47,534 nt of DNA from Candidatus Baldrarchaeum yapensis (lineage in GTDB: Archaea > Asgardarchaeota > Baldrarchaeia > Baldrarchaeales > Baldrarchaeaceae): the NCBI GenBank assembly GCA_016840465.1, contig JAEOSH010000012.1, forward strand, positions 1 through 47,534, read 5' to 3'. How positions within the stretch are numbered: position 1 is the first letter of the stretch; each line of letters begins with the position of its first letter. A program made the translations under genes and the position numbers. This document shows positions 3,312-46,856 of the stretch, in pieces. Under the pieces are notes generated by a model. It searched no databases. It saw only the letters and a program-made list of their open reading frames with translations, and was not told the DNA's origin.

Positions 3312-4211
3312 ATGGTCGATATATCAGTTTCCATAGCGGGCCTCCATCTACGAAACCCGACAATGCTAGCATCAGGAGTTCTTGGAATGTCAGGCAAACT
3401 TCTGAAGAGAGTTGCATCTGCAGGAGCAGGGGCAGTGGTTACGAAATCTATAGGCCCCAAACCTCGCCCCGGCCATCCTAATCCCACGTTTGTGGAACTG
3501 CCATACGGATACCTGAACGCTATGGGTTTGCCCAATCCGGGTATCGATGAATTCGTTCAAGAAATCAAAATAGCTAAGGAGAGTGGAGTGCCTGTCATAG
3601 TGAGCGTGTTTGGCCAATCACCCGAAGAATTCGCTTATGTTGCGGAAAGGGCCGAAAAAGCTGGTGCGAGCGCCATCGAGGTAAACGTCTCTTGTCCTCA
3701 TGCAGAGGTTGGACTAATAGGCCAAGACCCGGTGCTGACAAGGGAGGTCGTTAGAAGTGTTAAGGAGAGAGTAAAAATCCCGGTATTTGTAAAATTGACA
3801 CCGAATGTTACTGATATCACCGAGATTGCATGTGCCGCGGAAAAAGCGGGTGCTGACGCCGTAACTGCGATAAATACGGTGAAAGCCATGTATATAGACA
3901 TCGAGAGTGCAAAACCAGTGCTATCGAACAAGATAGGAGGACTTTCCGGACCTGCTATCAAGCCCATCGCCATCCGATGCGTTTACGAAATTTATGAGTC
4001 CGTACGAATACCCATTATCGGCGTCGGGGGAATACAAAACTGGAAGGATGCAGTGGAGTTCTTCTTGGCCGGAGCATCGGCGATACAAGTAGGATCCGGA
4101 GTAATTATGGGGCTAAATATCTTTAGAGATATTTGCGGTGGAATAAAAAGGTACTTGGAAAGGAAAGGTTTCACAAAGTTGCGCGAAATAATAGGACTTG
4201 CGCACAGGTGA
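3312..4211 (+). CDS. pyrD: Dihydroorotate dehydrogenase (NAD-type catalytic subunit)
   Basis: 299 residues from the ATG at 3312, which has GGTGG just upstream; the open frame runs 33 codons further 5' but that part has no family similarity. FMN-binding TIM barrel of the class 1B type: [25 protein letters not shown], the active-site-cysteine motif [20 protein letters not shown], and the phosphate-binding end [27 protein letters not shown]. It oxidises dihydroorotate to orotate in pyrimidine synthesis. The next gene, pyrK, starts seven bases downstream and supplies the FAD/2Fe-2S electron-transfer subunit, which fixes the class as 1B. Confidence 0.95.
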
Positions 4212-4218
4212 TTGGAAA

Positions 4219-5022
4219 ATGCCGATGGACATTGTGAGGATAGTGTCGGTGAAGAAGGAAACACAAAACGTCAAGACGATTTACTTCGAATGGGAGTCCG
4301 CAGAGAAAGCGCAACCCGGACAATTCGTGATGGTATGGATTCCAGGAGTCGACGAGATACCTTTAAGCCTCTCAAATGTTGGTTCTAAAATTGCGTCCGT
4401 TACTGTAAAGAAGGTGGGTAATGGAACGGCGGCCCTGCATCAAATGAATGTCGGAGACATGATCGGAATCAGGGGGCCCTACGGAAGATCATTCGCGGTA
4501 ACGGGAGATAAGGTGTTAATAGTTGCGGGAGGAGTCGGTATGGCTCCCATACTTCCTCTGATTAGGGAAGTCTGTTCAAAAGGATGTAATGTGACGGTAG
4601 TTGCGGGGTTTAAGAGTTCAGATGAGATAATATTCAGAGACTACCTAGAAAGTTCCCCCAAAGCTTTAGGAATTAAAGTGTATCTGTGTACGGAAGATGG
4701 CTCGCTCGGGATTAAAGGAACAGCACTCGAGGTTGCTAGGAAAATCCTAAAGAATGAGGTTTTCGATTGCGTGTACGTGTGTGGTAAAGAAACTCTAATA
4801 AGAGGCGTCTTTGATGAATCCATAAGAAAGGGAATTGAAATACAGGCATCTCTAGAACGATATATGAGATGTGGCGTTGGGCTTTGCGGTAGTTGCGTAT
4901 TAGGAGAATATCTGGTGTGTCGAGATGGTCCCGTTTTCGATACCGAAATGCTGAAAAACGTGGTTGATGAACTTGGGAACTTCAAGCGAGATGAATGTGG
5001 TAGGAAAACTAAAGTTTTATAG
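4219..5022 (+). CDS. pyrK: Dihydroorotate dehydrogenase electron-transfer subunit
   Basis: 267 residues from the ATG at 4219 (AGGTGA upstream overlaps the pyrD stop); an in-frame TTG at 4198 is less likely. Ferredoxin-reductase-like fold: FAD-binding GQFVMVWIPGVDEIPLSLS and RGPYGRSF, NAD-binding VLIVAGGVGMAPILPL, then a C-terminal 2Fe-2S motif C-x4-C-x2-C-x7-C in RCGVGLCGSCVLGEYLVC. It passes electrons from PyrD-bound FMN to NAD. The pair forms a heterotetramer in bacteria with class 1B enzymes. Confidence 0.95.
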   Translation: MPMDIVRIVSVKKETQNVKTIYFEWESAEKAQPGQFVMVWIPGVDEIPLSLSNVGSKIASVTVKKVGNGTAALHQMNVGDMIGIRGPYGRSFAVTGDKVLIVAGGVGMAPILPLIREVCSKGCNVTVVAGFKSSDEIIFRDYLESSPKALGIKVYLCTEDGSLGIKGTALEVARKILKNEVFDCVYVCGKETLIRGVFDESIRKGIEIQASLERYMRCGVGLCGSCVLGEYLVCRDGPVFDTEMLKNVVDELGNFKRDECGRKTKVL

Positions 5023-5073
5023 GTGGAAGAGGTATAGCATAAAGCCTAGAAAAATTAAGGACGGTGATATGAC

Positions 5074-5235
5074 ATGCCAGGTACCCACGGATCACTAAGC
5101 AAGGCCGGAAAAGTTAGAAGCCAGACTCCAAAGATCGAGGGTAGACCCCGTCACTCGCCTATTCCGAGAGTTAGAAACAAGCGAAATTACTTCAAGAGAG
5201 TAATTAAGGGACTGAGACCCGGTCAGCCCAAGTGA
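5074..5235 (+). CDS. rps30e: Small ribosomal subunit protein S30e
   Basis: 53-residue highly basic protein starting [20 protein letters not shown] and ending GLRPGQPK. The N-terminal HGSLxxAGKVRxQTPK pattern is diagnostic of eS30. The ATG is preceded by GGTGAT at eight bases. Archaeal S30e stands alone, whereas the eukaryotic protein is made as a ubiquitin-like fusion (FAU). S30e is found mainly in TACK and related archaea, so it helps place the organism. It lies 51 bases after pyrK and ends 13 bases before the convergent hypE. Confidence 0.95.
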
Positions 5236-5248
5236 TAATAGGAAGTTT

Positions 5249-6268
5249 TTAACATACCCTCGGGATTGGCTCGCCATAGGGCTTCTCCAGAATCCTAGTT
5301 CCACCAATGCTTGTCCTTACTAGAACATAACCTGGCTTCTCCGCTTTCACTTCTCCTATGATTGCCGCGTTTCTCCCATATTTTGTCTTCCTTATTGCAT
5401 CAAGAACCTCCTCTGCCTTATCGTTGCTCACACCTATTACCGCCTTGCCCTCGTTCGTGACCTCAAGGGGATCTATGCCCAGCATTTCGGCCGCTGCCTG
5501 CACTTCCTCCCTTATAGGCAACGCATCCTCCTCTATCCATATGGATACCTTGGATTTTTCGGCCATATCGACCAACGCGGCAGCAACGCCGCCCCTTGTT
5601 GGATCCTTCATCGCTGTTATTCCTCCGACCGATAATGCAGCGTTTATCGTCTCCCAAATTGGTGCAACATCGGACTTTAACTCGGTTTCAAACTCCAACC
5701 CCTCTCTTTTTGCTAAGAGAGCAATTCCATGATCTCCGATGGTTCCGGTTATTATTATTTTATCTCCGGGCTTCAATCCTGAGTCTTTTATTATATGTCC
5801 TCTCTTCACGATCCCTACGCCTGTGGTCGTGATTATTATTTTGTCGACCTGTCCCCGTGGCACGACTTTCGTGTCTCCGGATATGAGTGCAACTCCGACC
5901 TCTTCCGCTGTTTGTGCCATTGATGCCAGGATTTTCTCCAAATCAGAGATAGGAAATCCCTCTTCCAATACCATTGCCGATGTTATAGCTATAGGGCGAG
6001 CACCCATTACGCTAACATCATTAATTATGCCTGCAACCGCCAGTTTACCTATATCTCCACCTGGAAAGAATATGGGATCCACAGTATGGGCATCCGTCGA
6101 GATAACTATCTCATAGTCACCCACTGGTATGGAGGCGCCATCATCCAGATCATCGAGGCCGACGCCACCCGCTGTCCGGAGGCTAAACTTTGGAATTATA
6201 ACGTTTTTTATTAATTCGTCCATTAGAATGCCGCCAGCACCGTGTGCCAGTTCTATCCTCTTTTCCAT
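5249..6268 (-). CDS. hypE: Hydrogenase maturation protein HypE (AIR-synthase fold)
   Basis: 339 residues from the ATG at 6268. An ATG at 6283 is also in frame, but the TATA box at 6301 would start transcription near 6280, so the inner start fits better. Motifs include [61 protein letters not shown] and [11 protein letters not shown]. It ends PIPRVC; the C-terminal Cys is the residue HypE carbamoylates and dehydrates to thiocyanate, giving the CN ligand of [NiFe] hydrogenases. The intact tail argues for an active HypE. No other hyp or hydrogenase gene is in the window. Confidence 0.93.
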
Positions 6269-6300
6269 TATTGTTTCCCCCATTCATGGAATCAAAAATA

Positions 6301-6310
6301 GGTTTATAAA
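6301..6310. promoter_or_regulatory. Shared TATA box between hypE and rps8e
   Basis: The near-palindromic GGTTTATAAA(C) sits between the divergent genes. At the usual 25-base spacing it would start hypE transcription near 6280 and rps8e transcription near 6332. Both distances leave short leaders containing purine-rich Shine-Dalgarno sites. Inference from position and composition only. Confidence 0.45.
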
Positions 6311-6353
6311 CATCGATTATTCTGTCTTTAAGGCAGAGCCGGGGTGCAGAAGC

Positions 6354-6749
6354 ATGGGTGTATGGCACGGCCCATCGAGGAGACTTCCAACAGGTGCTCT
6401 CAGAAAGCTTGCGAGGAAGAAAAGGAAGTACGAAATGGGTAGACCTCCTGTAGAGACGACTATCGGCGAGGAGAAGAGGAAAGTAGTAAGGGCGAGAGGA
6501 GGCAACATAAAGGTAAAGCTACTGCAAGCAACGTATGCGAACGTCTCTGACCCCAAGACGGGTATAACAAAGAAAGTAAAAATACTAAAAGTGATAGAAA
6601 ATCCTGCAAACCGGGATTACTCTAGAAGAGGGATTATCACTAAGGGCGCCATCGTAAAAACAGAAATAGGAGACGCCGTTGTAACCAGCCGACCGGGGCA
6701 GGATGGCGTAGTAAACGCTGTGCTTATCTCTGAAGAAACCAAGGAGTAG
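6354..6749 (+). CDS. rps8e: Small ribosomal subunit protein S8e
   Basis: 131 residues from the ATG at 6354; the open frame extends far upstream into antisense hypE but only this part matches the family. Diagnostic segments are the start [32 protein letters not shown], the central [13 protein letters not shown], and the end [34 protein letters not shown]. Basic and of usual archaeal length. It leads a likely operon with SRP19 (7 bases downstream) and gar1. Confidence 0.96.
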
Positions 6750-6756
6750 AGCAGTT

Positions 6757-7053
6757 TTGAAGCAAAAAGACCATTACATCCTATGGCCTGTATATTTTGA
6801 CTCCAGAAAAACGAGAAAAGAGGGTAGGAGGGTTCCTAAGAAACTTTCTGTAGAAAATCCAAGAGTTGAAGAAATCATAAAGGCTCTAGAGGCTATGGGG
6901 ATCGAGGGAAAAATTGAGAAAGATAAAGCTTATCCTCGGTGCTGGTGGGAGGGAGGCGGTCGGGTTCTGGTTAGAAAGGATGCTTGTTCTTTTAATAAGC
7001 GTCGTCTTATACTCGAAGTTGCAAAACTCCTACACAGGATGAGAAAGAAGTGA
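6757..7053 (+). CDS. srp19: Signal recognition particle 19 kDa subunit
   Basis: 98 residues, TTG start. Matches archaeal SRP19: YILWPVYFDSRKTRKEGRRVPKKLSVENPRVEEIIKALEAMG at the N-terminus and YPRCWWEGGGRVLVR in the middle, with a basic C-terminus. SRP19 binds helices 6 and 8 of 7S RNA and promotes loading of SRP54, for cotranslational targeting of membrane and secreted proteins. Only six bases separate it from gar1, so rps8e, srp19 and gar1 are probably cotranscribed. Confidence 0.95.
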   Translation: MKQKDHYILWPVYFDSRKTRKEGRRVPKKLSVENPRVEEIIKALEAMGIEGKIEKDKAYPRCWWEGGGRVLVRKDACSFNKRRLILEVAKLLHRMRKK

Positions 7054-7059
7054 TAAAAA

Positions 7060-7362
7060 ATGATAAAGAGACTGGGGAAGGTCTTACACGTATCACCGCA
7101 TAAGGTGATGATCGTCAGAAGTACCTTTGCCCCAGCGATCGGAAACACCGTAGTTACAAAGGACATGGAGAACATAGGCGAGGTCTTCGATGTATTCGGT
7201 CCCGTGAGCAAACCTTATGTGAGCATAAAACCCAAGAAGGGCGTCGATCCGGAAAAACTTATCGGTGCGACGTTATATGTGTACCTGGAGGAAGAAAAAG
7301 AAACCTCAGTGAAGAAGAGAAAACCCGCTAAGCGTAAAGTTAAAGGGAAGCCCCAAAAGTGA
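7060..7362 (+). CDS. gar1: H/ACA RNP subunit Gar1-like protein
   Basis: 100 residues. The beta-barrel core MIKRLGKVLHVSPHKVMIVRS..GNTVVTKDMENIGEVFDVFGPVSKPYVSIKP matches archaeal Gar1, with a lysine-rich tail. In archaea Gar1 binds Cbf5 and helps substrate release during H/ACA-guided pseudouridylation. The GEVFDVFGPVSxPYVSI segment is the best family marker. It is the third gene of the S8e operon. The 146 bases after it hold a weak hairpin (arms 7375-7380 and 7389-7394) and the start of the next transcription unit. Confidence 0.9.
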   Translation: MIKRLGKVLHVSPHKVMIVRSTFAPAIGNTVVTKDMENIGEVFDVFGPVSKPYVSIKPKKGVDPEKLIGATLYVYLEEEKETSVKKRKPAKRKVKGKPQK

Positions 7363-7508
7363 AGAGGCTGCCTGTGTAGGTGTCTGCTCCCTACATTTAG
7401 TTATAATAGCAAATGCTCACTTGGCGAATTACGACGTCTTAACAATAACTTTTTACACCATCTGGGGCGTAAATTAAACATAGTTGCCTGATGATGCAGT
7501 GATGCAGA

Positions 7509-7880
7509 ATGTCGCTCGATGAAAAGGCATACGAAATAATAAAGGCGGCTGGAAAGGAAGGAATTCTCCAAAGCGAACTATGGAAGAAACTTGGTATTTC
7601 GAGCAGAGAAGGTGCACGTATAGTTTCTAGACTGGAGAAAAGAGGTCTCATCGAGAGAAAACGAGTAATACACAATGGAAGACGAACTTACAGGGTCTTT
7701 GCGCTCATTAAGGAGGAATCGCAGATCCAATGGGACACATTAGAAGGGTGCCCCTGCTTCACATGTCATGACCTTTACAGATGCGGCTCGGGTAACCCCC
7801 TCTCACCCGAGTTATGTGAAAAGATGACTAAATGGCTTATGAAGCTGGTAGACAAGTTTAAGGATTCCGAAACCTCTTAG
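7509..7880 (+). CDS. TFE-beta / RPC34-like winged-helix protein with Fe-S cysteines
   Basis: 123 residues. Residues 5-68 form a winged helix (EKAYEIIKAAGKEGILQSELWKKLGISSREGARIVSRLEKRGLIER). The C-terminal part has five cysteines at 81, 83, 86, 92 and 103 in CPCFTCHDLYRCG...SPELCEKM. This combination is the layout of archaeal TFE-beta (homologue of RNA polymerase III subunit RPC39/34), whose cysteines hold a 4Fe-4S cluster and which joins TFE-alpha to open the promoter during initiation. Which four cysteines would be ligands is not clear. The alternative is a generic archaeal winged-helix regulator. The upstream sequence has a tandem TGATGCAG repeat at 7492-7507. The 3' end overlaps the convergent methyltransferase by 23 bases. 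Confidence 0.75.
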   Translation: MSLDEKAYEIIKAAGKEGILQSELWKKLGISSREGARIVSRLEKRGLIERKRVIHNGRRTYRVFALIKEESQIQWDTLEGCPCFTCHDLYRCGSGNPLSPELCEKMTKWLMKLVDKFKDSETS

Positions 7881-8454
7881 CGATAATATAAATTTCTGCG
7901 CTCCTCTTCCGGGAAGCCTCCGGCTTATACGGTTTGACAAATGAGAAAAGTTCCTTGACATTTTTCAGAAAATCCTCAAACATGTCCCCTTGGAACACTT
8001 TAACAACAAAGTTTCCACCAACTCTCAAAACACTCCTTGCAATCTCTAATGAGCGCTGTGCCAAAAACACCTGGCGTGCATGATCAACACACCAAACGCC
8101 ACTAACATTTGGGGAACAATCACTCAATATAAGGTCGTACTTTTCAGGACATGCATCCATAATTTTCCTAAGCGTGCTATCATCCGTTATGTCCCCCTTT
8201 ATAAATACAACGCCTGGGAGCGGAGAAATATCGACTATATCTACCCCCACAACCACCCCATCCTTTCCGACCCTCTTTAGTGAGTATTGAAGCCATCCTC
8301 CAGGCGCACAACAAAGATCCAAAACACGCTTAACACCGTCGAAGACCCTGTACTTGCGGTCGATTTGCTCAAGCTTATAAATAGCCCTTGACCTATATCC
8401 CTCTCTCTTAGCTTTTAGATAGTAATAGTCCGGTTTACGCCTTCTCCTTTTCAT
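7858..8454 (-). CDS. rlmE: FtsJ/RlmE-type ribose 2'-O-methyltransferase
   Basis: 198 residues, family length. The SAM-binding motif is VLDLCCAPGGWLQYSLKRVG (residues 45-63), and the K-D-K-E catalytic tetrad is visible at about K27 (RAIYKLEQ), D112 (LSDCSPNVSG), K152 (VVKVFQG) and E187 (KRSAEIYII). Bacterial RlmE methylates U2552 of 23S rRNA; archaeal homologues are presumed to act on the same A-loop position. No guide RNA is needed. It is transcribed after trm1 with three bases between them. Confidence 0.93.
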   Translation of the reverse strand: MKRRRRKPDYYYLKAKREGYRSRAIYKLEQIDRKYRVFDGVKRVLDLCCAPGGWLQYSLKRVGKDGVVVGVDIVDISPLPGVVFIKGDITDDSTLRKIMDACPEKYDLILSDCSPNVSGVWCVDHARQVFLAQRSLEIARSVLRVGGNFVVKVFQGDMFEDFLKNVKELFSFVKPYKPEASRKRSAEIYIIAKRFRNP

Positions 8455-14516: not shown

Positions 14517-15440
14517 TCATACTGGAATCTCTATAGGCTTCTCATCCGTGGATACCGGAACATCAGTACGCTTTAACGCCATTAAAATGTCCTTAGGGAG
14601 TACGAATAACGCCTCATGGAGTTCCGGAGAATAATATTCGGTGTAAACACCCCTCTCTTCGAATCTTTTCTTTATAAGATCTTTACTTATACTTCTAGGG
14701 TCTATATGATCTGAAGCAATTATAAACATCCAATAGAGCCCAAAGGATGGAATCCATGCCCCATAAGGCCTGACTATCGAAAAAACCTCCGATAATGTCT
14801 TATAAATCGCAACAAACTCTCTCTGATATACGTATGGGCTCTCACTATGGGTAGTCACGATTCCATTTGAATTAAGTCTCGATTTTATTAATTTATAGAA
14901 CTCAACGGTGTACAGACGGGCTGACTGTCCCGAAGGATCTGTCAAGTCCAGAATTACCACATCAAACTTGTCATTAGTCCTCTCGACGAATCTTCGCCCA
15001 TCCTCTATAAAAATACTCACTCTTTCGTCGTTAAATGCATCCTTATGAACCTCTTTCAAGTATTTTTTCGAAATTTCTATTATTTCCTTGTCCAGATCTA
15101 CAAGAACAACCTCCTTCACGACGTTGTGCTTAAGAACCTCCTCTAATGCCCCTCCATCTCCTCCCCCAATTATTAACACCTTTTCCGGTCTGGGATGGGA
15201 AAAGAGGGATGGATGAACGAGACTCTCGTGGTAAATGTACTCATCGAAAGTCGATAATTGCACCTTTCCATCTATTAGGAGCATTTTGCCAAAGTCTGGA
15301 GATTCGACAATTTCCACTCGCTGATATTTCGTGGTGCCGGAAAATATCACTCTATTTATCTGTACCAGTCGTGAGAGACTCCTAGTGAGCCGCTCATGAT
15401 AAAGCATGCCACCAATGTCGATCGATGATGAAGAGGGCAT
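14517..15440 (-). CDS. speE: Polyamine aminopropyltransferase (spermidine synthase family)
   Basis: 307 residues from the ATG at 15440; an adjacent GTG at 15449 is in frame, but GGTGG at the upstream stop suits the ATG. Motifs: YQRVEIVESPDFGKMLLIDGKVQLSTFDEYIYHESLVHPSLFSHP, SAM-type GGGDGGALEEVLKH, DLTDPSG with the catalytic Asp, and ALFVLPKDI near the end. It transfers aminopropyl from decarboxylated SAM to a diamine or triamine; archaeal members often accept agmatine or cadaverine, so spermidine synthase is a family-level call. Its start lies ten bases past the stop of a roadblock gene (15450-15842), indicating coupled translation. Confidence 0.92.
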   Translation of the reverse strand: MPSSSSIDIGGMLYHERLTRSLSRLVQINRVIFSGTTKYQRVEIVESPDFGKMLLIDGKVQLSTFDEYIYHESLVHPSLFSHPRPEKVLIIGGGDGGALEEVLKHNVVKEVVLVDLDKEIIEISKKYLKEVHKDAFNDERVSIFIEDGRRFVERTNDKFDVVILDLTDPSGQSARLYTVEFYKLIKSRLNSNGIVTTHSESPYVYQREFVAIYKTLSEVFSIVRPYGAWIPSFGLYWMFIIASDHIDPRSISKDLIKKRFEERGVYTEYYSPELHEALFVLPKDILMALKRTDVPVSTDEKPIEIPV

Positions 15441-15449
15441 ATCTGCCAC

Positions 15450-15842
15450 CTATCTCTGAAGTGCTGATATTCGCTCTATGGCGCTTCTCAAGTTTAAACT
15501 TATCAGTCCAATCTGCGAGAGTGCATCCGCTCCGGCATATGCAACTAATATGACATTTCTCCCTCCCGCGATCACAATGTAACCATTCGTCCCCCTTATC
15601 GTTATTTCACGCAATTCTCCTCGCTTGAGTTTTTCGGAGACGGTGGACGAGTGTTCATATATTTTGATTATGGCTTCAGCTGTGGGCTCATATGGGATCC
15701 TTTCGATCCCCTCCGCCGCTATCAATTCTCCAGTATTCGAAACAACAATCATTCCCTCAATTGCTGGAATGATCTTCATGATTTCCCTAAGAATTGCCAA
15801 TATCTGCTCTCTGGCCGCCACACGGTCTTCCTCCTTTGACAT
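15450..15842 (-). CDS. Roadblock/LC7 domain protein (locus A, minus strand)
   Basis: 130 residues, nearly all one roadblock/LC7 domain: IPAIEGMIVVSNTGELIAAEGI (strand-turn-strand), a central helix, then GYIVIAGGRNVILVAYAGADALSQIGLISLNLRSAIERISAL. This is the family of MglB, Ragulator and dynein light chains, which dimerise and regulate small GTPases. It precedes speE, with its stop ten bases from the speE ATG, and diverges from the roadblock/GTPase operon starting at 15945. Why it is coupled to a polyamine gene is unknown. Confidence 0.88.
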   Translation of the reverse strand: MSKEEDRVAAREQILAILREIMKIIPAIEGMIVVSNTGELIAAEGIERIPYEPTAEAIIKIYEHSSTVSEKLKRGELREITIRGTNGYIVIAGGRNVILVAYAGADALSQIGLISLNLRSAIERISALQR

Positions 15843-15944
15843 CTATGATCTACATTCTCCTGCCAAGTTTTAATTGTAACGAACACCATAAATTAATTGA
15901 GTAACACAGTTAATATTTGATAACCCCAAGGAGCGTTTTCCCCA
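15843..15944. promoter_or_regulatory. Divergent promoter region between the two arms of roadblock locus A
   Basis: 102 AT-rich bases. A TATA-like AGTTTTAATT near 15867-15876 could serve the minus-strand roadblock-speE unit, giving a nearly leaderless transcript. CATAAATTAATT near 15887-15898 could serve the plus-strand operon and leaves AAGGAG (15928-15933) in the leader of the 94-residue roadblock gene. Inferred from spacing. Confidence 0.4.
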
Positions 15945-16229
15945 ATGCTATCCGAGGATGTCATTAAGAGCATTCTTGAGAACCTCGGGAAGATGGAAGG
16001 CGTTAAGGGGGTCGTTATCACAACGACGGAGGGAATTCCGGTACACTCAACATTCCCACCAGATGTAACCGAGAAAATATCCGCATTTGCCGCGTCTCTC
16101 TTAGGAAAAGCTAAAGAGATGATCAAGGAAGTGGGTGGCGCAAAGGTTACCTTTATAACACTAGACACGTCGGAAGGCGAACTCTTAATATCAAGTGAAC
16201 AGGAATATGTGATAGCGATCTTGCGGTAG
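15945..16229 (+). CDS. Minimal roadblock/LC7 domain protein (locus A)
   Basis: 94 residues, a bare roadblock domain: KSILENLGKMEGVKGVVITTTEGIPVHSTFPPDVTEKISAFAASLLGKAKEMIKEVGGAKVTFITLDTSEGELLISSEQEYVIAILR. The VKGVVITTTEGIPVHSTF strand pattern is close to MglB and dynein light-chain roadblock proteins. Expected to dimerise and to bind a GTPase. First gene of a plus-strand operon that continues through a second roadblock protein, a GTPase, a third roadblock protein, uppS and an NYN-like gene. Confidence 0.88.
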   Translation: MLSEDVIKSILENLGKMEGVKGVVITTTEGIPVHSTFPPDVTEKISAFAASLLGKAKEMIKEVGGAKVTFITLDTSEGELLISSEQEYVIAILR

Positions 16230-16284
16230 GAATAAATTTAATACCGGGTTTGCCGTGAAAAATAATGATGTGGACGGTGGTCGA

Positions 16285-16752
16285 ATGGAGCCTAATGTCT
16301 TTGAGAAAATACTAACAAGGCTAATAAAGAGCGAAAGCGGAATAAGACGGGCGATCTTAGTCGATAGAACCGGTCTGACTATCGCCCATGCCTCGAAGTT
16401 CTCATCCTATTATCCGATAGACGTGGAGGGAATAGGCGCTATTGCAAGCGCGATTTTCGTTGGCAGTGAGGAGCAGGGCAAGAACCTTGACATAGGAGAC
16501 CTACAAATGGTGATATCAGAGTTCGAGAACGGAAAAATATTCGCAATCAGCTGCGGACAGGGGGTACTTTGCCTAATCACCGATCCGGATGTCAATATAG
16601 GAATGATAAGGTTGCTCATGAAACGAACTGCTGCAGAATTAGGGAAATTGCTGGATGAGTTCCTATCGGCCACCGTCTCGATTCCTGTAGAGGAGAAGAA
16701 GGAGGAAGAGGAAGAACTAAAGGCAGCCCTCGATGCGCTGGAACAATTATAA
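16285..16752 (+). CDS. Roadblock/LC7 domain protein with acidic C-terminal tail (locus A)
   Basis: 155 residues from the ATG at 16285 (GGTGGT upstream; a GTG at 16255 would add ten residues). Residues 5-120 form a roadblock domain: SESGIRRAILVDRTGLTIAHASKF..IGAIASAIFVGSEEQGKNLDIGDLQMVISEFENGKIFAISCGQGVLCLITDPDVNIGMIRLLMKRTA. The last 25 residues (VEEKKEEEEELKAALDALEQL) are a charged helix, possibly a docking or coiled-coil segment. It ends 15 bases before the GTPase gene, which is its likely partner. Confidence 0.85.
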   Translation: MEPNVFEKILTRLIKSESGIRRAILVDRTGLTIAHASKFSSYYPIDVEGIGAIASAIFVGSEEQGKNLDIGDLQMVISEFENGKIFAISCGQGVLCLITDPDVNIGMIRLLMKRTAAELGKLLDEFLSATVSIPVEEKKEEEEELKAALDALEQL

Positions 16753-16767
16753 TGGTGGCCATAAGAC

Positions 16768-17358
16768 ATGCCAAGAGTTGACCCCCAGGGAAGATTACAC
16801 TTTAAAATAGTGTTCTGGGGTCCCTCTTTATCGGGAAAGACGACATCACTTAGGTGGATATACAATAACGTAGAGGGAATAACTAAGGGGAGATTTGTGT
16901 CGATAGAAGATCCGACAGGCAGAACGCTATACTTCGACTACACGCCTGTCTCCATATCGTCAAAAGTCGTGTTCGATCTCTATACAGTCGCGGGGCAAAG
17001 AAGGCACAAAATACAGAGAAGGAAGGTGCTGGAAGGAGTAGATGGAATACTATTCGTAGCAGATTCGGATCCAGCTCAGCTTCAGGAAAATGAAATTAGC
17101 ATGACCGAATTAAGACAACTGCTAGGAGACAAGCTTGGAAGGGAAATACCACTTGTCGTGTTACTAAATAAGCGAGATCTTCCAAATGCCGTGAGTAAGG
17201 AAACCCTCCTCAATGCCCTTAAGATAGTCCCGGTAAATATTCGCGTTTATGAGGGAATCGCGATAAGAGGGATAGGAGTGAAACAGGCTTTCAAAGCGAT
17301 AGTTCGTGAGGTGCTCTGGAACTATTACCAGCGGGCTAAGCAACAGAAGGCACAATGA
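16768..17358 (+). CDS. MglA-like small Ras-superfamily GTPase (locus A)
   Basis: 196 residues. P-loop GPSLSGKTT at residues 18-26, a DPTGRTLYFDY switch region near 48-58, the G3 motif in YTVAGQ (72-77), and G4 NKRD at 134-137. As in bacterial MglA, the usual Asp of the DxxGQ motif is Thr (TVAGQ), which separates it from Arf, Ras and Rab. MglA-like GTPases act as switches whose GAP is the roadblock protein MglB. Here three roadblock genes share the operon, so one or more may be GAP or scaffold. There is no lipidation motif or membrane segment. The ATG follows GGTGG. Confidence 0.92.
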   Translation: MPRVDPQGRLHFKIVFWGPSLSGKTTSLRWIYNNVEGITKGRFVSIEDPTGRTLYFDYTPVSISSKVVFDLYTVAGQRRHKIQRRKVLEGVDGILFVADSDPAQLQENEISMTELRQLLGDKLGREIPLVVLLNKRDLPNAVSKETLLNALKIVPVNIRVYEGIAIRGIGVKQAFKAIVREVLWNYYQRAKQQKAQ

Positions 17359-17385
17359 AAAAGTTTATCCAAAACAGGAGTTTTC

Positions 17386-17793
17386 ATGTTTATGAAGGTG
17401 ATTGAAGTGAGTGAGGTTGTAGGGGTTGAGCCTCAAACACTATCCAAATTACTAAAGGAGTTTACAATGACAGTCCCAGAAATCGAGGGCGCGGCCCTTG
17501 TCACTGATGAGGGACTACCAATAGTGTCCGTTCTTCCAGAGGGTGTTGATGAAACAAAGATTGCCGCTATGACGGCAGCAATTCTATCTCTTGGAGAACA
17601 AACATCTAAAGAATTAGGGAAGGGGTCTCTAGAGCAGGTTTACATTAAAGGGAAGAACGGTTACATAATAGCGATGGATGCGGGATCGAATGCCGTGTTA
17701 GCCGTCATCGCAAGCAGTGAAGCAAAACTAGGGCTAGTTTTGTTTCGCATGGAGCAGCTTGCTGAGAAGATATCAAAGATAATATCTTTGTAA
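17386..17793 (+). CDS. Roadblock/LC7 domain protein (locus A, downstream of GTPase)
   Basis: 135 residues. The roadblock fold spans residues 18-130: LSKLLKEFTMTVPEIEGAALVTDEGLPIVSVLPEGVDETKIAAMTAAILSLGEQTSKELGKGSLEQVYIKGKNGYIIAMDAGSNAVLAVIASSEAKLGLVLFRMEQLAEKI. It is similar in layout to the minus-strand roadblock protein at 15450 (GYIVIAGGRNVILVAYA against GYIIAMDAGSNAVLAVIA), suggesting duplication. AGGAG precedes the ATG at 17386; an ATG two codons on is possible. Seventeen bases separate it from uppS. Confidence 0.9.
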   Translation: MFMKVIEVSEVVGVEPQTLSKLLKEFTMTVPEIEGAALVTDEGLPIVSVLPEGVDETKIAAMTAAILSLGEQTSKELGKGSLEQVYIKGKNGYIIAMDAGSNAVLAVIASSEAKLGLVLFRMEQLAEKISKIISL

Positions 17794-17810
17794 AGCTTGG
17801 GTAGTCAAAA

Positions 17811-18575
17811 ATGAATATTTTAGGGCCAATTTATCGGTTGTATGAATGGCTATTGTGGAGAAAGGTGAGTAAAGGGAAAATTCCACAACACGTTGGTGTA
17901 ATACTGGATGGCAATAGAAGGTTTGCACGAGAGCACGGCCTTGACATCGAAAGTGGTTACCGGAGGGGTGCTGAAAGAGTCAGGCACTTCCTCAAGTGGT
18001 GTTTAGACATAGGAATAAAGGTGATAACGCTCTATGCCTTCAGTACTGAAAACTTTCAGCGCGATGAGCGGGAAGTTAGTATACTTATGAAATTATTAAA
18101 AGAGTACGCAGAAAAGGCGCTAAATGAACCTTACATTTACAAATACAAAGTCCGTATTCGCGTACTTGGAAGAAAATATTTGTTCCCAGAGGAATTAAAG
18201 GAACTAATAAATGAACTTGAAGAGAGGACAAAAAACCATGACAAGTATTTTCTAAACATAGCCCTCGGCTATGGCGGACGAGCAGAAATTGTAGATGCGG
18301 TTAAGAAAATAGTAAGGGAAGCGATTAATGGGAAAATAGATCCCGAAGAAATAGATGAGGACATGATAAGAAGGTATCTTTATACCGATGGGCTCCCAGA
18401 CCCGGATATTATCATCAGAACCTCCGGTGAGGAGAGACTGTCAGGTTTTCTCCTATGGCAGTCAGCATACTCCGAGTTGTATTTTTTAGATGTTTACTGG
18501 CCAGCAATAAGAAAAATAGACTTCCTTAGAGCTATTAGAACATATCAGCAACGGGAACGCAGATTTGGAAGGTGA
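17811..18575 (+). CDS. uppS: cis-Prenyl diphosphate synthase (UppS / DHDDS family)
   Basis: 254 residues. Diagnostic motifs are HVGVILDGNRRFAREHGLD (catalytic Asp and the Gly-Asn-Arg-Arg motif), GAERVRHFLKWCLDIGIKVITLYAFSTENFQR, LNIALGYGGRAEIVDAVK, and the C-terminal PDPDIIIRTSGEERLSGFLLWQSAYSELYFLDVYWP. It condenses isopentenyl diphosphate onto an allylic primer to form the long cis-polyprenyl (dolichol-type) carrier for glycan assembly at the membrane. It lies inside the roadblock/GTPase operon with short gaps on both sides. Confidence 0.95.
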   Translation: MNILGPIYRLYEWLLWRKVSKGKIPQHVGVILDGNRRFAREHGLDIESGYRRGAERVRHFLKWCLDIGIKVITLYAFSTENFQRDEREVSILMKLLKEYAEKALNEPYIYKYKVRIRVLGRKYLFPEELKELINELEERTKNHDKYFLNIALGYGGRAEIVDAVKKIVREAINGKIDPEEIDEDMIRRYLYTDGLPDPDIIIRTSGEERLSGFLLWQSAYSELYFLDVYWPAIRKIDFLRAIRTYQQRERRFGR

Positions 18576-18579
18576 TTTC

Positions 18580-19086
18580 ATGAAAGAAAAAGAAAAATCG
18601 CTTCTTAAGAAACTTCTCTTCAAGAAGAGAAAAAAGAAGAAAATGGCAGTACTTATAGATTTAACCAATGTCGGAGAGGAGAATAGGATAACCCTTCTAA
18701 ATGAAATAAAAGCTCTTCTACTTTCAATTCCGAAAATGAGAACGATAAGCATGATAAAAATATTTCTGGGGGATAGCGCACCCGAAGGGATAATAGAGAT
18801 GTTCATGGAACTGGGGGTTCCTCCGGTTATAGTACCAGAACATCCGGACATTTATCTCGCATACGAACTTGTAGATATATCCCACTCAGAGAAGTTCGAT
18901 GGAGTGATTTTATACTCGTGTAACAAGAATATCCTCCCAGCACTCAGTAAGATAAAGGAGTCCGATAAAGAACTACTAGTGATCCTCTCAAAGCACGACG
19001 AAATTGCAGAAATTCTGAGATCAATTGCCGATCAAGTACTACAACCGGAACCTCCTCCAACGGAAGAGCAAAAAACAAGTAATTAA
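18580..19086 (+). CDS. NYN/PIN-like domain protein with altered acidic residues
   Basis: 168 residues from the ATG at 18580, with GGTGA five bases before; this GGTGA overlaps the uppS stop. The N-terminus is very basic (lysine-rich to residue 21), followed by an alpha/beta domain resembling NYN (PIN-like) nucleases: MAVLIDLTNVGEEN (D27), PEHPDIYLAYELVD (D90), then FDGVILYSCNKNILPALSKIKES. In active NYN proteins that last segment usually reads SGDSDFxP; here both Asp positions are Asn (N115, N117). It may bind RNA without cutting it. The basic tail suits nucleic-acid or membrane binding. The family call is moderate, from the strand pattern. Confidence 0.6.
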   Translation: MKEKEKSLLKKLLFKKRKKKKMAVLIDLTNVGEENRITLLNEIKALLLSIPKMRTISMIKIFLGDSAPEGIIEMFMELGVPPVIVPEHPDIYLAYELVDISHSEKFDGVILYSCNKNILPALSKIKESDKELLVILSKHDEIAEILRSIADQVLQPEPPPTEEQKTSN

Positions 19087-43806: not shown

Positions 43807-44433
43807 TCAGAATCTAGTGGATGCCACTATGAGTCCTGCCATCGTGATATGCAACGCAAAGTACTCGAGTAACATTTCAAAATTCAGCAATAAGTGATGT
43901 GAAAGTGCCCATACCACTAAGCATAACGTTAGCAGGGCTATGCGCGCACTTTTCAATTTTATTGCGGAGAGAATAAACACCGATACTATCAGCAAACCCC
44001 CGCTAATTGCATAAATTTTCATTATTGCTGAAAACCACAAGGGGACCCCGGGCTCGTCAAATATCTCCGCCCTGACGACATGTATCCCGATGAACGGCAA
44101 TGATAGTAATATGCACACCACGCTTACAATTATCAGAATTCTAATCGCCCGTCTCAATCCTCTATGGACAAAAATCTCCGAAAGTAACAGCCAGCCTATC
44201 GCCCCAGTCGGCATTCCTATGGTGAACCATATAAGTGCAAACATATCTCTCGAAAACAGGCCAACCGACCATATCAGTACATCTATCTGCCCAAGTATTC
44301 CAAGTACATAGTAAATGGCAAAAAACAACGTCCCCTTCTCCACCTTCTTATAAACAATTGCAGGCCTTAGCAATAAGTATGCTGCAACCACAGACGCCAA
44401 GATACTAGTCGTACCAACTACCTCGAGAACCAT
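43807..44433 (-). CDS. Seven-helix membrane protein of unknown function (locus B)
   Basis: I cannot assign a family. 208 residues from the ATG at 44433 (GGTGA five bases upstream; a GTG at 44442 overlaps the GTPase stop). Hydrophobic segments are near residues 3-22, 36-58, 66-86, 96-116, 134-156, 160-178 and 183-204, so about seven helices. There is no large soluble domain. The 7TM pattern recalls sensor-type membrane modules (7TMR, MASE) but without recognisable motifs. It is the last gene of an operon with a GTPase, an unknown protein and a double-roadblock protein, so a membrane receptor or anchor for that GTPase is a working idea. Confidence 0.8.
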   Translation of the reverse strand: MVLEVVGTTSILASVVAAYLLLRPAIVYKKVEKGTLFFAIYYVLGILGQIDVLIWSVGLFSRDMFALIWFTIGMPTGAIGWLLLSEIFVHRGLRRAIRILIIVSVVCILLSLPFIGIHVVRAEIFDEPGVPLWFSAIMKIYAISGGLLIVSVFILSAIKLKSARIALLTLCLVVWALSHHLLLNFEMLLEYFALHITMAGLIVASTRF

Positions 44434-44438
44434 GAAAA

Positions 44439-44990
44439 TCACCCTATATTCTCCAATATTTTCAAGAGCAGAGTCTCAAACGCCTCCTTTACCCCCATAC
44501 CGGTGATCGCCGAAGTTCGCATCACCTCAACCTCATCTCCCAATCCAAGAGCGCTCTTTAACTCCTCTGGGGAAATTACGCCATTAAGGTCACATTTGTT
44601 TATGCAAAAGAGCAACGCCGTACTCCGCTTAATCACGCGTTTCAGCTCCTCCCAGCATTTTTTATTGAGCTCTATGCAGGTGCGTTGCCCATCCGCTACG
44701 AAGATGACCCCATCGGTTCCCCTGAGTATCGTGTACCTGGTTCCTGCGTAATAATCCTGTCCGGTAGCCGTCCATAGATTCACCTCCAACGTCCAGTCAT
44801 CAAATTTCAGTTTGATTACCCCAAAGTCGAAAAAGAGAGTCCTTCCGGTAGTGGTCTCGACGGATCTAACATGGTCGTCGTATCCCAGTTCCTTCAATAG
44901 AGCCTTCAGTGAGGTGGTCTTTCCGCTCATCGCAGGTCCATAATACACGATCTTCAATTTTATCGTTTTATTAGCGCGATCTACAATCAT
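44439..44990 (-). CDS. MglA-like small Ras-superfamily GTPase (locus B)
   Basis: 183 residues from the ATG at 44990 (GGTGAT four bases upstream, overlapping the previous stop; a GTG at 45002 is in frame). P-loop GPAMSGKTT at residues 18-26, TTTGRTLFFDF near 46-56, G3 NLWTATGQ (71-78), G4 NKCD (131-134) and G5 TSAITG (159-164). As in MglA, Thr replaces the Asp of DxxGQ. It is related to the locus A GTPase but clearly distinct, so the genome keeps at least two. The adjacent roadblock protein (45892-46818) is the likely partner. Confidence 0.92.
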   Translation of the reverse strand: MIVDRANKTIKLKIVYYGPAMSGKTTSLKALLKELGYDDHVRSVETTTGRTLFFDFGVIKLKFDDWTLEVNLWTATGQDYYAGTRYTILRGTDGVIFVADGQRTCIELNKKCWEELKRVIKRSTALLFCINKCDLNGVISPEELKSALGLGDEVEVMRTSAITGMGVKEAFETLLLKILENIG

Positions 44991-44995
44991 GATCA

Positions 44996-45889
44996 TCACC
45001 ACAGACTATCGATCCAGTCGCTAATGCTGCGAATCACGCTCTTAGAAATCAAATCTCCGAAATCCTCTCCCCACTCGGCCCTAATAAACTCAAGAAGGCC
45101 CGCAATGTCTATGTGCGGATAGAGTATTGTCTGTAGTAAAGTCCTATCGGAAATCCTATCCCTCATACCAACATTGTTAAGTATTCTGAGTTTGTAAAGA
45201 AGTATTAAGGCCCTCCTAGCCGCATGCACGAAGTTCAGAACCTCATTTCGTAGCAACTCCTCCTTGAGCATAGTCTCCTCGGTACTGAAATCTAAGAGTA
45301 TATCCGAGAGATCGGTATCCAACCTCAGTCCGCGAATTCTCCTCCTGATGACTTTACGCATTCTGCTCAGAGCGGTATGAGTCCTCACAATAGCATTTTC
45401 AATTAACTGCCTTTCAAATCCATAAAGCCTTTCCTGATCTCCCAAGGACTCCATGCGCACTCCATCGCTCAAGTATAAGACCTCCACAGGTCCGGAATAT
45501 CTGAAAACTCCCTCAACAATCTTATTAGTATCGTTATTTGGCTCTCGAAGAACCCCCAAAACCCAACCCTTGAAGTCAGAAAATTTCTCGAGCGCCATTT
45601 TCACATATCTGCATGGACACACAATTACAACTCGCTTTGCATGTAAATCCTGTCTCTCTCTCCTCAGGATTTCTTCGTACTCCCTTGTAGTTATGAAATC
45701 TATACCAAAGATGACTTTATCCCTATGAGGCGCAAATGAAGCTATATACTCAAGCATTAAATCCACGGATCCCCCATTTTCCCCAATAACGATAATGGGC
45801 CTCCTTAATAGCAGTGCGCTCAGCAACCTCGCCAACTCGTCTACATTCAATGACGAAAATATCATTGAGGGCGAAAACGTGCCCTTCAT
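44996..45889 (-). CDS. Protein of unknown function (297 residues, locus B)
   Basis: I do not recognise this protein. 297 residues, ATG with GGAGG upstream inside the end of the roadblock gene. Residues 5-150 read as alternating strands and helices (RRPIIVIGENGGSVDLMLEYIASFAPHRDKVIFGIDFI, KRVVIVCPC, GWVLGVLREPN, PVEVLYLSDG), an alpha/beta domain without a P-loop or other catalytic signature. Residues 155-297 are mostly helical, with a basic segment RMRKVIRRRIRGLRL near 178-192. No signal peptide or membrane helix. Its stop overlaps the GTPase start region, so it is translated with the GTPase and could be its regulator or effector. Confidence 0.8.
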   Translation of the reverse strand: MKGTFSPSMIFSSLNVDELARLLSALLLRRPIIVIGENGGSVDLMLEYIASFAPHRDKVIFGIDFITTREYEEILRRERQDLHAKRVVIVCPCRYVKMALEKFSDFKGWVLGVLREPNNDTNKIVEGVFRYSGPVEVLYLSDGVRMESLGDQERLYGFERQLIENAIVRTHTALSRMRKVIRRRIRGLRLDTDLSDILLDFSTEETMLKEELLRNEVLNFVHAARRALILLYKLRILNNVGMRDRISDRTLLQTILYPHIDIAGLLEFIRAEWGEDFGDLISKSVIRSISDWIDSLW

Positions 45890-45891
45890 GT

Positions 45892-46818
45892 TTACCCCCT
45901 CCTAAATATCCTCATTATTTTGGATAATATTCCGGATAGGTAACCTCTATGTCTGTTTCTGGTGTTATCTATCAAATCCCTTAATTTTTTGACATACGAG
46001 GGAAGAAAGACCTTTATAAGACCAAGCCTTAACCCCTCTTTTGAATTCTTGAGTGCAAGAATGCCGACGCTTATGTCGTAAAGAATGTAGTTGGTCTCCT
46101 CAAAATCACAAATAAACTGAGTCACCTGACTTCTTTTAAGCGTCCATGCTAGCCTCTTCGAAACGTCCATCACTGAATAGAGAAAGGGAGCTAAGTACTC
46201 CAACTCGCTACCATTCTTGGAAACGGTAACAACAGGCGTTCCTCCATCAATTATAAATGCCGCGGACATAACTTGAGGTATTACTTTCATCAGGCCGTCA
46301 AGAAGCGATCTTATTGTACGAATTTCATCATCACTGAACTCGAAAACCTCCCTCTCTACAGTGTCCACCTCTAGCGACCCCGGCCTCAAAGAGAACCTCT
46401 TAAGAGTCTCCAACATGGCATCATCAATACCCTTAGGAGGAACCCTAAGATCCCTCAACCGTAACAACTCGGGATACGCAATACTCACAAATTCGTTGAT
46501 CTTCAAGAAAATCGCGCCCATATTTACCGATGCGTGGGTCAATACGGCAAGGCGCAATTCCTCAATTTGAGGGAGAGATGATATTATGAGTTTTGCCCTA
46601 TCGCCTTCTATTACTACATAGTTCGGATTCTTGTTGTGTATTTGATGGACCGCCTTTATTATGGCCGCTACCGATGAGCACACTCCTAGTACCTCTTCCT
46701 GACTAAGCCACGCACCCGAAATTCCCAGCGGGTATCCGTCCTGCTGAACCAGTACCACGACCTCAACTCCGGGTACTTGCCTAATCATCTTAAGGCGAGA
46801 CGCTATGCTGCTTTCCAT
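45892..46818 (-). CDS. Two-domain roadblock/LC7 protein (locus B)
   Basis: 308 residues from the ATG at 46818; a GTG at 46836 would lie upstream of the likely transcription start. The N-terminal roadblock domain (about 8-115) reads VPGVEVVVLVQQDGYPLGISGAWLSQEEVLGVCSSVAAIIKAV...VVIEGDRAKLIISSLPQIEELRLAVLTHASVNMGAIFLKINE. A second, weaker roadblock-like domain (about 175-285) reads IPQVMSAAFIIDGGTPVVTVSK...LYSVMDVSKRLAWTLKRSQVTQFICDFEETNYILYDISVGILALKNSKEGLRLGLIKV. The basic C-terminus ends in KIMRIFRRG. Covalent pairing of two roadblock domains would mimic the MglB or Ragulator dimer. It leads the operon. Confidence 0.85.
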   Translation of the reverse strand: MESSIASRLKMIRQVPGVEVVVLVQQDGYPLGISGAWLSQEEVLGVCSSVAAIIKAVHQIHNKNPNYVVIEGDRAKLIISSLPQIEELRLAVLTHASVNMGAIFLKINEFVSIAYPELLRLRDLRVPPKGIDDAMLETLKRFSLRPGSLEVDTVEREVFEFSDDEIRTIRSLLDGLMKVIPQVMSAAFIIDGGTPVVTVSKNGSELEYLAPFLYSVMDVSKRLAWTLKRSQVTQFICDFEETNYILYDISVGILALKNSKEGLRLGLIKVFLPSYVKKLRDLIDNTRNRHRGYLSGILSKIMRIFRRG

Positions 46819-46856
46819 GGCTGCTCGCCCCTCCACATAAGTGTCTCTAAGAAATG

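Follow-up and report, generated by a model that had tools for sequence, protein, structure and literature searches.

A four-roadblock gene cluster around an MglA-type GTPase in Asgard archaea

Why one small GTPase gene should lie among four genes for roadblock proteins is the question raised by positions 15,450 to 19,086 of a 47,534-nucleotide stretch of the genome of Candidatus Baldrarchaeum yapensis (contig JAEOSH010000012.1, assembly GCA_016840465.1; the whole stretch is referred to below as the window). Asgard archaea are the closest living relatives of eukaryotes, and small GTPases and roadblock proteins number in the dozens in their genomes; nine roadblock domains and 12 Arf-like GTPase matches were counted in the genome from which the window comes. 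In Lokiarchaeon MK-D1, GTPase and roadblock genes are generally not found in shared operons (PMC10933270), and the published view from this organism is that partners are unreadable from gene layout. By its layout, the cluster described here matches a GTPase with its likely partners in many Asgard lineages. Its gene content, order, orthology, conservation and catalytic motifs were established directly, and with a probability of roughly 0.7 the locus is a copy of an ancestral Asgard cluster encoding an MglA/MglB-type membrane switch with three extra roadblock subunits.

A gene cluster conserved across Asgard lineages

Rb1 (15450..15842, minus strand; 130 aa), the fastest-evolving member of the cluster, diverges from Rb2 (15945..16229, plus strand; 94 aa) across an intergenic region of 102 bp (15843..15944) that presumably acts as a shared promoter region. 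Rb2 is followed on the plus strand by Rb3 (16285..16752; 155 aa), the GTPase gene (16768..17358; 196 aa) and Rb4 (17386..17793; 135 aa), and then by uppS and a gene for a degenerate NYN-domain protein. All four roadblock proteins pass the Pfam Robl_LC7 model (E 2e-9 to 4e-21). The start of Rb3 is most likely ATG 16285, since its orthologues are mostly 154-156 aa long, GTG 16255 being the less likely alternative; with this start, and with ATG 18580 for the NYN gene, the successive gaps from Rb2 to NYN measure 55, 15, 27, 17, and 4 nt. The open reading frames, domains and spacing stand as given in the initial annotation, which had recognized three plus-strand roadblock genes, the GTPase, uppS and NYN at gaps of 4-55 bases, together with a fourth, divergent roadblock gene (Rb1, Robl_LC7 2e-9).

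The GTPase was searched for in 228 Asgard genomes and in public genome contigs, and 60 neighbourhoods were examined; the genomes of the same order as the window (G002-G004) include Baldrarchaeota record JAEOSG010000013.1, and the window's own family is designated f1. The order of a divergent Rb1 followed by Rb2-Rb3-GTPase-Rb4 recurs in related Baldr-, Hermod-, Jord-, Thor- and Borrarchaeota and in further Asgard families. It continues into uppS in f1 and f2 (Baldrarchaeota), f11 (Hermodarchaeota), f13 (Jordarchaeota), f28 (Thorarchaeota) and f29 (Rb4 inverted), while the GTPase and all four roadblocks are present in Borrarchaeota (L013) and, without uppS, in f26. Family f3 has Rb2-Rb3-GTPase-Rb4-uppS-NYN with no Rb1 nearby, and f12 has Rb2-Rb3-GTPase-Rb4 with uppS ~40 kb off. 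The Heimdall-like families f4-f9 retain subsets (Rb2-GTPase in f5, Rb2-GTPase-Rb4 in f6, Rb3-GTPase-Rb4 in f8, and in f7 a reordered form that includes uppS and NYN). The divergence of Rb1 and Rb2 is retained in Baldr-, Hermod- and Jordarchaeota, f26, f27, f29 and Odin, and with an insertion in Thorarchaeota, over spacers that elsewhere measure 147-375 bp; in f27 (L202), Rb1 and the divergent Rb2-Rb3 remain. Finally, the Odinarchaeum-type genome G174 (L189), a single contig of 1,418,269 bases, keeps the divergent Rb1 and Rb2-Rb3-Rb4 intact, Rb4 following Rb3 without a GTPase in between.

A flank control compared 20-kb loci of ten lineages. Rb1-Rb4 and uppS, taken as the core, recurred in 355 of 396 cross-family comparisons (90%), a somewhat generous figure, as roadblocks can cross-match between positions and centring the loci on the GTPase gives an advantage to genes close by; all other genes recurred in 235 of 1512 (16%). 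One of the ten lineages, f23 (G166, L160), is possibly a near-copy of f3 that was binned wrongly, which would slightly bias the result toward the core. Despite these biases, genes just outside the core score far lower. The clusters of this 'Njord' genome and of G160 (f20, L159) were rejected as separate lineages: both are probably mis-binned, because they are 76-95% identical to the f3 and Jordarchaeota clusters, their bins are 12% and 9% contaminated, and other members of their families lack the cluster. That roadblocks and GTPase belong to a single module, as had been proposed, is borne out, the arrangement being confirmed as more than chance and as an ancient unit conserved over many Asgard families, not a local oddity.

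It is quite improbable that the neighbourhood was conserved without shared function, as a slow-to-rearrange region holding SMC-ScpA-ScpB, the roadblocks, the GTPase, uppS, NYN and other housekeeping genes. Genes for an acetyl-CoA-synthetase-like protein (ACSb) and a GPN GTPase do recur as neighbours in the flank control (56 and 44% of comparisons, respectively), and in Hermodarchaeota (L150) the genes for SMC (4694-8266), ScpA (3874-4560) and ScpB (3330-3878) adjoin Rb1 on the same strand. Same-sized homologues of the three occur in Jord- and Thorarchaeota, and SMC lies ~3 kb from Rb1 in Odin, near Rb1 in Thorarchaeota and 8 kb off in f3. However, the recurrence of the core exceeds by far that of the rest, the core has a protein fold in common and a partner type that is already known, and the Odin roadblocks stay together although the GTPase is gone. 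A link of Rb1 to chromosome segregation through SMC-ScpA-ScpB is possible.

Descent of the GTPase and of the four roadblock proteins

Myxococcus xanthus MglA is the best solved match of the GTPase in sequence (1e-36), and MglA is also the best fold match of its predicted model; Pfam returns weak matches to the Arf, Ras and Gtr1_RagA models. In public genome contigs the best matches are 36 Asgard loci, followed by bacterial MglA, and in a tree built without a Rab/Arf/Rag outgroup the Asgard sequences form a clade beside bacterial MglA. The protein carries the P-loop GPSLSGKT, an Arg finger beside G2 (GRTLYFDY, aligning with DRTLFFDF of M. xanthus), NKRD, and the G3 motif YTVAGQ, in which Ala stands where TVPGQ has Pro and the Asp of DxxGQ, the Rab/Ras hallmark, is absent; an Asgard-specific RHxxQRK motif follows switch II. 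Its 196 residues comprise the GTPase domain only, without the C-terminal roadblock domain that is a hallmark of Ragulator-Rag. A roadblock/MglB gene, Rb3, lies directly upstream, within the four genes that define Group 1 coupling in a survey in which archaea are not listed in Group 1 (PMC4316618). Given its Arg finger, TVAGQ and best match to MglA, the GTPase fits the Group 1 description, and its earlier designation as MglA-like is upheld.

In the roadblock tree, the four gene positions correspond to four clades, with support of 100/99 for Rb1 (16 positional orthologues), 88/88 for Rb2, 98/95 for Rb3 and 98/85 for Rb4, and six of the seven bacterial MglBs form the sister group of Rb3 (96/80), on a short alignment of 145 columns in which deep joins are rough. 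The best solved-structure matches of Rb3 are MglB (1e-6) and LAMTOR2; it also matches MAPKK1_Int, the Pfam name of the LAMTOR3/MP1 family, and scores below the cut-off of the NCBIfam Thermus MglB equivalog model (35 vs 200 bits). Rb3 is present in 200 of 224 Asgard genomes and in all 45 good ones. Behind a flexible linker it ends in an acidic C-terminal helix, EELKAALxELEK, found in every lineage with a close GTPase and also in Odin; the compared C-terminal ends read EITDDDIDNLFSE in bacterial MglB and LDLSDLD in Loki-like Rb3. The C-terminal helix of MglB drives nucleotide exchange in MglA, to which it binds (PMC11016934). Loki-like families f18-f20 depart from the others both in the Rb3 tail and in the switch I/beta2-beta3 region of the GTPase, a joint change that would fit contact between them and that counts as a single evolutionary event. 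As judged by sequence, Rb3 is the MglB-type partner, which sharpens the MglA-like label given earlier to the locus.

Rb2 is a short roadblock of the RBLC7/LAMTOR5/dynein-LC7 type (Robl_LC7 8e-17, LAMTOR5 3e-7) without a C-terminal helix. Its best solved match is 7F8F (E 8e-23), the 94-residue chain of which is identical, residue for residue, to the Rb2 of the G174 cluster; because 7F8F is encoded there exactly, G174 is taken as Odinarchaeum. From its length and description, the structure itself is presumed to be the Odin-RBLC7 reported by Tran et al. 2024 (PMC10933270), where the code is not printed. Rb4 (Robl_LC7 4e-21), which has N- and C-terminal extensions outside the core domain, is the roadblock to which 7F8M is nearest (41-48% identity).

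Pairing within the cluster and a possible membrane switch

Once the average of the other genes had been corrected for, between-lineage distances revealed two pairs with covarying rates, Rb2-Rb3 (r=0.76, p<0.001) and GTPase-Rb4 (r=0.49, p=0.014); no covariation was seen in any remaining pair. Both signals persist when any one lineage is omitted, and they are not mutually independent, since the correction uses the other genes. Gene spacing in Thorarchaeota matches these pairs, with <=24 nt between Rb2 and Rb3, usually <=20 nt between the GTPase and Rb4, and 140-400 nt or more between the pairs; tRNA genes were looked for in the Thorarchaeota Rb3-GTPase gap and none was found. Ancestry marks Rb3 as the GTPase regulator while rates mark Rb4, a tension that an Rb2:Rb3 dimer together with an Rb4:GTPase unit would resolve.

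From these data we infer complex formation, a membrane site, and roles of the roadblocks as GTPase-activating proteins (GAP) or guanine nucleotide exchange factors (GEF). Most likely, the cluster products would assemble into a switch at the membrane surface, in which the GTPase would cycle between GTP and GDP and roadblock dimers would serve as GAP/GEF and scaffold. Rb3 shares its branch of origin with bacterial MglB and stands with the GTPase in the mglB-mglA gene order. Rb2, Rb4 and the divergent Rb1, each separately conserved, would be extra subunits, and two tighter sub-assemblies would most likely be made up of Rb2+Rb3 and of GTPase+Rb4. The reading of the locus as an MglA/MglB-type switch with additional subunits is supported by the deep synteny, the contrast of 90% with 16% in the flank control, the four positional clades, the sister position of Rb3 to MglB, the MglA hallmarks and the acidic helix of Rb3, and likewise by the retention in Odin of the four roadblock genes as a unit without the GTPase. 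The joint difference of Rb3 tail and GTPase in the Loki-like families and the two covarying pairs, with their agreement with Thorarchaeota gene spacing, speak for it as well.

Several observations weigh against it. The genes are dispersed in the Loki-like families f18-f20 and in f9, f10 and f14-f16, and the cluster is therefore not essential as an operon; its layout broke up on the Lokiarchaeial side, to which the organism of the earlier operon survey (MK-D1) belongs. The rates of Rb3 and the GTPase do not covary (partial r -0.31), which is awkward if Rb3 is purely MglB-like. In AlphaFold models of read-through fusions, obtained from shallow alignments with one copy per chain, the folds were correct and the docking was not confident (pTM 0.62 for Rb3+GTPase and 0.53 for Rb2+Rb3+GTPase), and the C-terminal helix of Rb3 (143-154 of the fusion) was placed with low confidence.

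A rather unlikely alternative is that the roadblocks act not mainly as an MglB-type GAP/GEF and would instead form a mixed RB/RBLC7 scaffold that, in the manner of LAMTOR2/3 plus LAMTOR4/5, holds the GTPase at a membrane as a forerunner of Ragulator. The LC7/LAMTOR5-like nature of Rb2, the matches of Rb3 to MAPKK1_Int and LAMTOR2, the presence of several distinct roadblocks per GTPase, the covarying rates of Rb2 and Rb3, and the persistence of the Odin four-roadblock unit without a GTPase, as a scaffold might persist, all point in this direction. Yet the GTPase is of the MglA and not the Rag type and has no C-terminal roadblock domain, the recurrent neighbours showed no LAMTOR1-like wrapping protein, Rb3 falls together with MglB in the tree, and Odin-RBLC7 crystallised as a homodimer (PMC10933270).

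Neighbouring genes, related loci and known systems

The uppS gene (17811..18575, plus strand; 254 aa) is the only cis-prenyltransferase (polyprenyl diphosphate synthase) gene in the window genome and serves to make the lipid carrier of cell-surface sugars; its product scores above cut-off (Pfam 4e-84, TIGR00055 5e-85) and retains the motifs DGNRR and RTSGEERLSGFLLWQSAYSELYF, DGN and RxSG both being present. The initial annotation had proposed checking whether uppS is retained beside the GTPase and roadblocks in relatives, and it is, adjoining Rb4 in five families. Its distance from Rb4 is at most ~120 nt in f1, f2, Hermodarchaeota, f29 and most Thorarchaeota, and ranges from a few hundred bases to ~4 kb in f3, f4, f7 and Jordarchaeota (2.5-4 kb in the last). 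It lies ~8-40 kb away in f5, f8 and f12, and is unlinked to the cluster in f10, f26 and Odin. We regard uppS as a true ancestral neighbour, but the link in function with envelope glycans that was suggested earlier is at most a possibility: because housekeeping genes recur too and uppS is unlinked in some families, the region as a whole may instead be generally conserved.

The degenerate NYN-domain protein (18580..19086, plus strand; 168 aa from ATG 18580), encoded downstream of uppS, matches Pfam NYN (4e-7) and, below the model cut-off, TIGR00288 (5e-14). The conserved active site of the NYN family is an SGDxDF-like acidic motif, and this motif is replaced in the window protein and its relatives, in agreement with the earlier description of the protein as degenerate. 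The uppS-NYN pairing is also found in f3, Hermodarchaeota, Odin (L201) and the Heimdall-like f5. The pair persists where the roadblock cluster lies elsewhere (L201, L203), which suggests a separate uppS-NYN unit. Both genes are ancestral same-direction neighbours of the cluster, probably co-transcribed with it in many lineages.

Control of polyprenol-dependent envelope glycan or membrane growth by the module, through co-expression with uppS or direct action on it, is unlikely. It would agree with the single copy of uppS and its position next to Rb4 in several deep families, with the residual linkage within ~8-40 kb where the cluster is broken (f5, f8, f12), with f5, in which Rb4 lies near uppS-NYN and apart from the GTPase, and with the Loki locus L193, in which uppS is 2.6 kb from Rb3. 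However, uppS is unlinked in three groups, unrelated housekeeping genes are also among the recurrent neighbours, and the Odin uppS goes with NYN and not with the roadblocks. A combined version, in which roadblocks and GTPase would make up a hetero-oligomeric scaffold at the membrane, foreshadowing Ragulator in archaea and deciding where or when polyprenol-dependent envelope growth occurs, with uppS as a co-regulated output, is most doubtful.

On its other side, Rb1 abuts speE (spermidine synthase; 14517..15449, minus strand) with a gap of zero. The reported coupling of the two genes holds in the window and is not conserved: in G003, of the sister family, the contig that carries the cluster has speE 236 kb away, and speE scores zero in the flank control. 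It was ruled out as a member of the conserved unit.

Further GTPase and roadblock loci were noted. In the window genome, a roadblock nearest the Rb4 model lies near two GTPases (L184, G000:C83), and a roadblock of the Rb2 group adjoins a GTPase (L186, G000:C30). A second MglA-like GTPase with an extended open reading frame of ~275-310 aa occurs in Thorarchaeota and others (L015-L036), ~7 kb from an Rb4-like roadblock in many Thorarchaeota. Within the window, a second Ras/Arf-like GTPase (44439-45002, minus strand) belongs to a four-gene minus-strand run, the other members of which (43807-44442, 44996-45889, and 45892-46836) have no Pfam match.

The pairing of roadblocks with GTPases (MglAB, conservons) and the structures of Asgard roadblocks were already known; a literature search, with most subscription papers and all preprints outside its scope, found no description of this cluster, and among papers on the matched structure codes Tran et al. 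2024 was the sole relevant one. The cluster ties the solved structure 7F8F to genomic partners and puts a Group-1-type MglA/MglB pair in archaea, and the function of roadblock-GTPase systems ancestral to Ragulator becomes testable with five small proteins.

Among known systems, the Group 1 pair MglA-MglB, as found in Myxococcus and Thermus, resembles the cluster in its Arg finger, TVxGQ, and MglB-type roadblock directly upstream with an acidic C-terminal helix, and provides the best sequence and fold matches. The Asgard locus differs in its three extra, separately conserved roadblock genes, whereas at most two MglB were found coupled to one MglA in the 2014 survey (PMC4316618), and its GTPase in the Ala for Pro in TVPGQ and in RHxxQRK after switch II. 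The Streptomyces conservons (cvnA-D) likewise are conserved operons that combine an MglB-type roadblock with a GTPase of the MglA type, but the Asgard cluster has no histidine kinase and four roadblocks instead of one. Of the Asgard RB/RBLC7 proteins of Tran et al. 2024, treated there as isolated proteins (PMC10933270), 7F8F corresponds to the Odin-type cluster Rb2 and 7F8M is nearest Rb4; unlike the layout reported there, GTPase and roadblocks do cluster elsewhere in Asgard archaea. Ragulator-Rag (LAMTOR1-5) shares with the cluster the presence of several RB- and RBLC7-type roadblocks around a small GTPase, but differs in that the Asgard GTPase is MglA-type and lacks a roadblock domain, and in the LAMTOR1-like gene, which was not seen among the recurrent neighbours.

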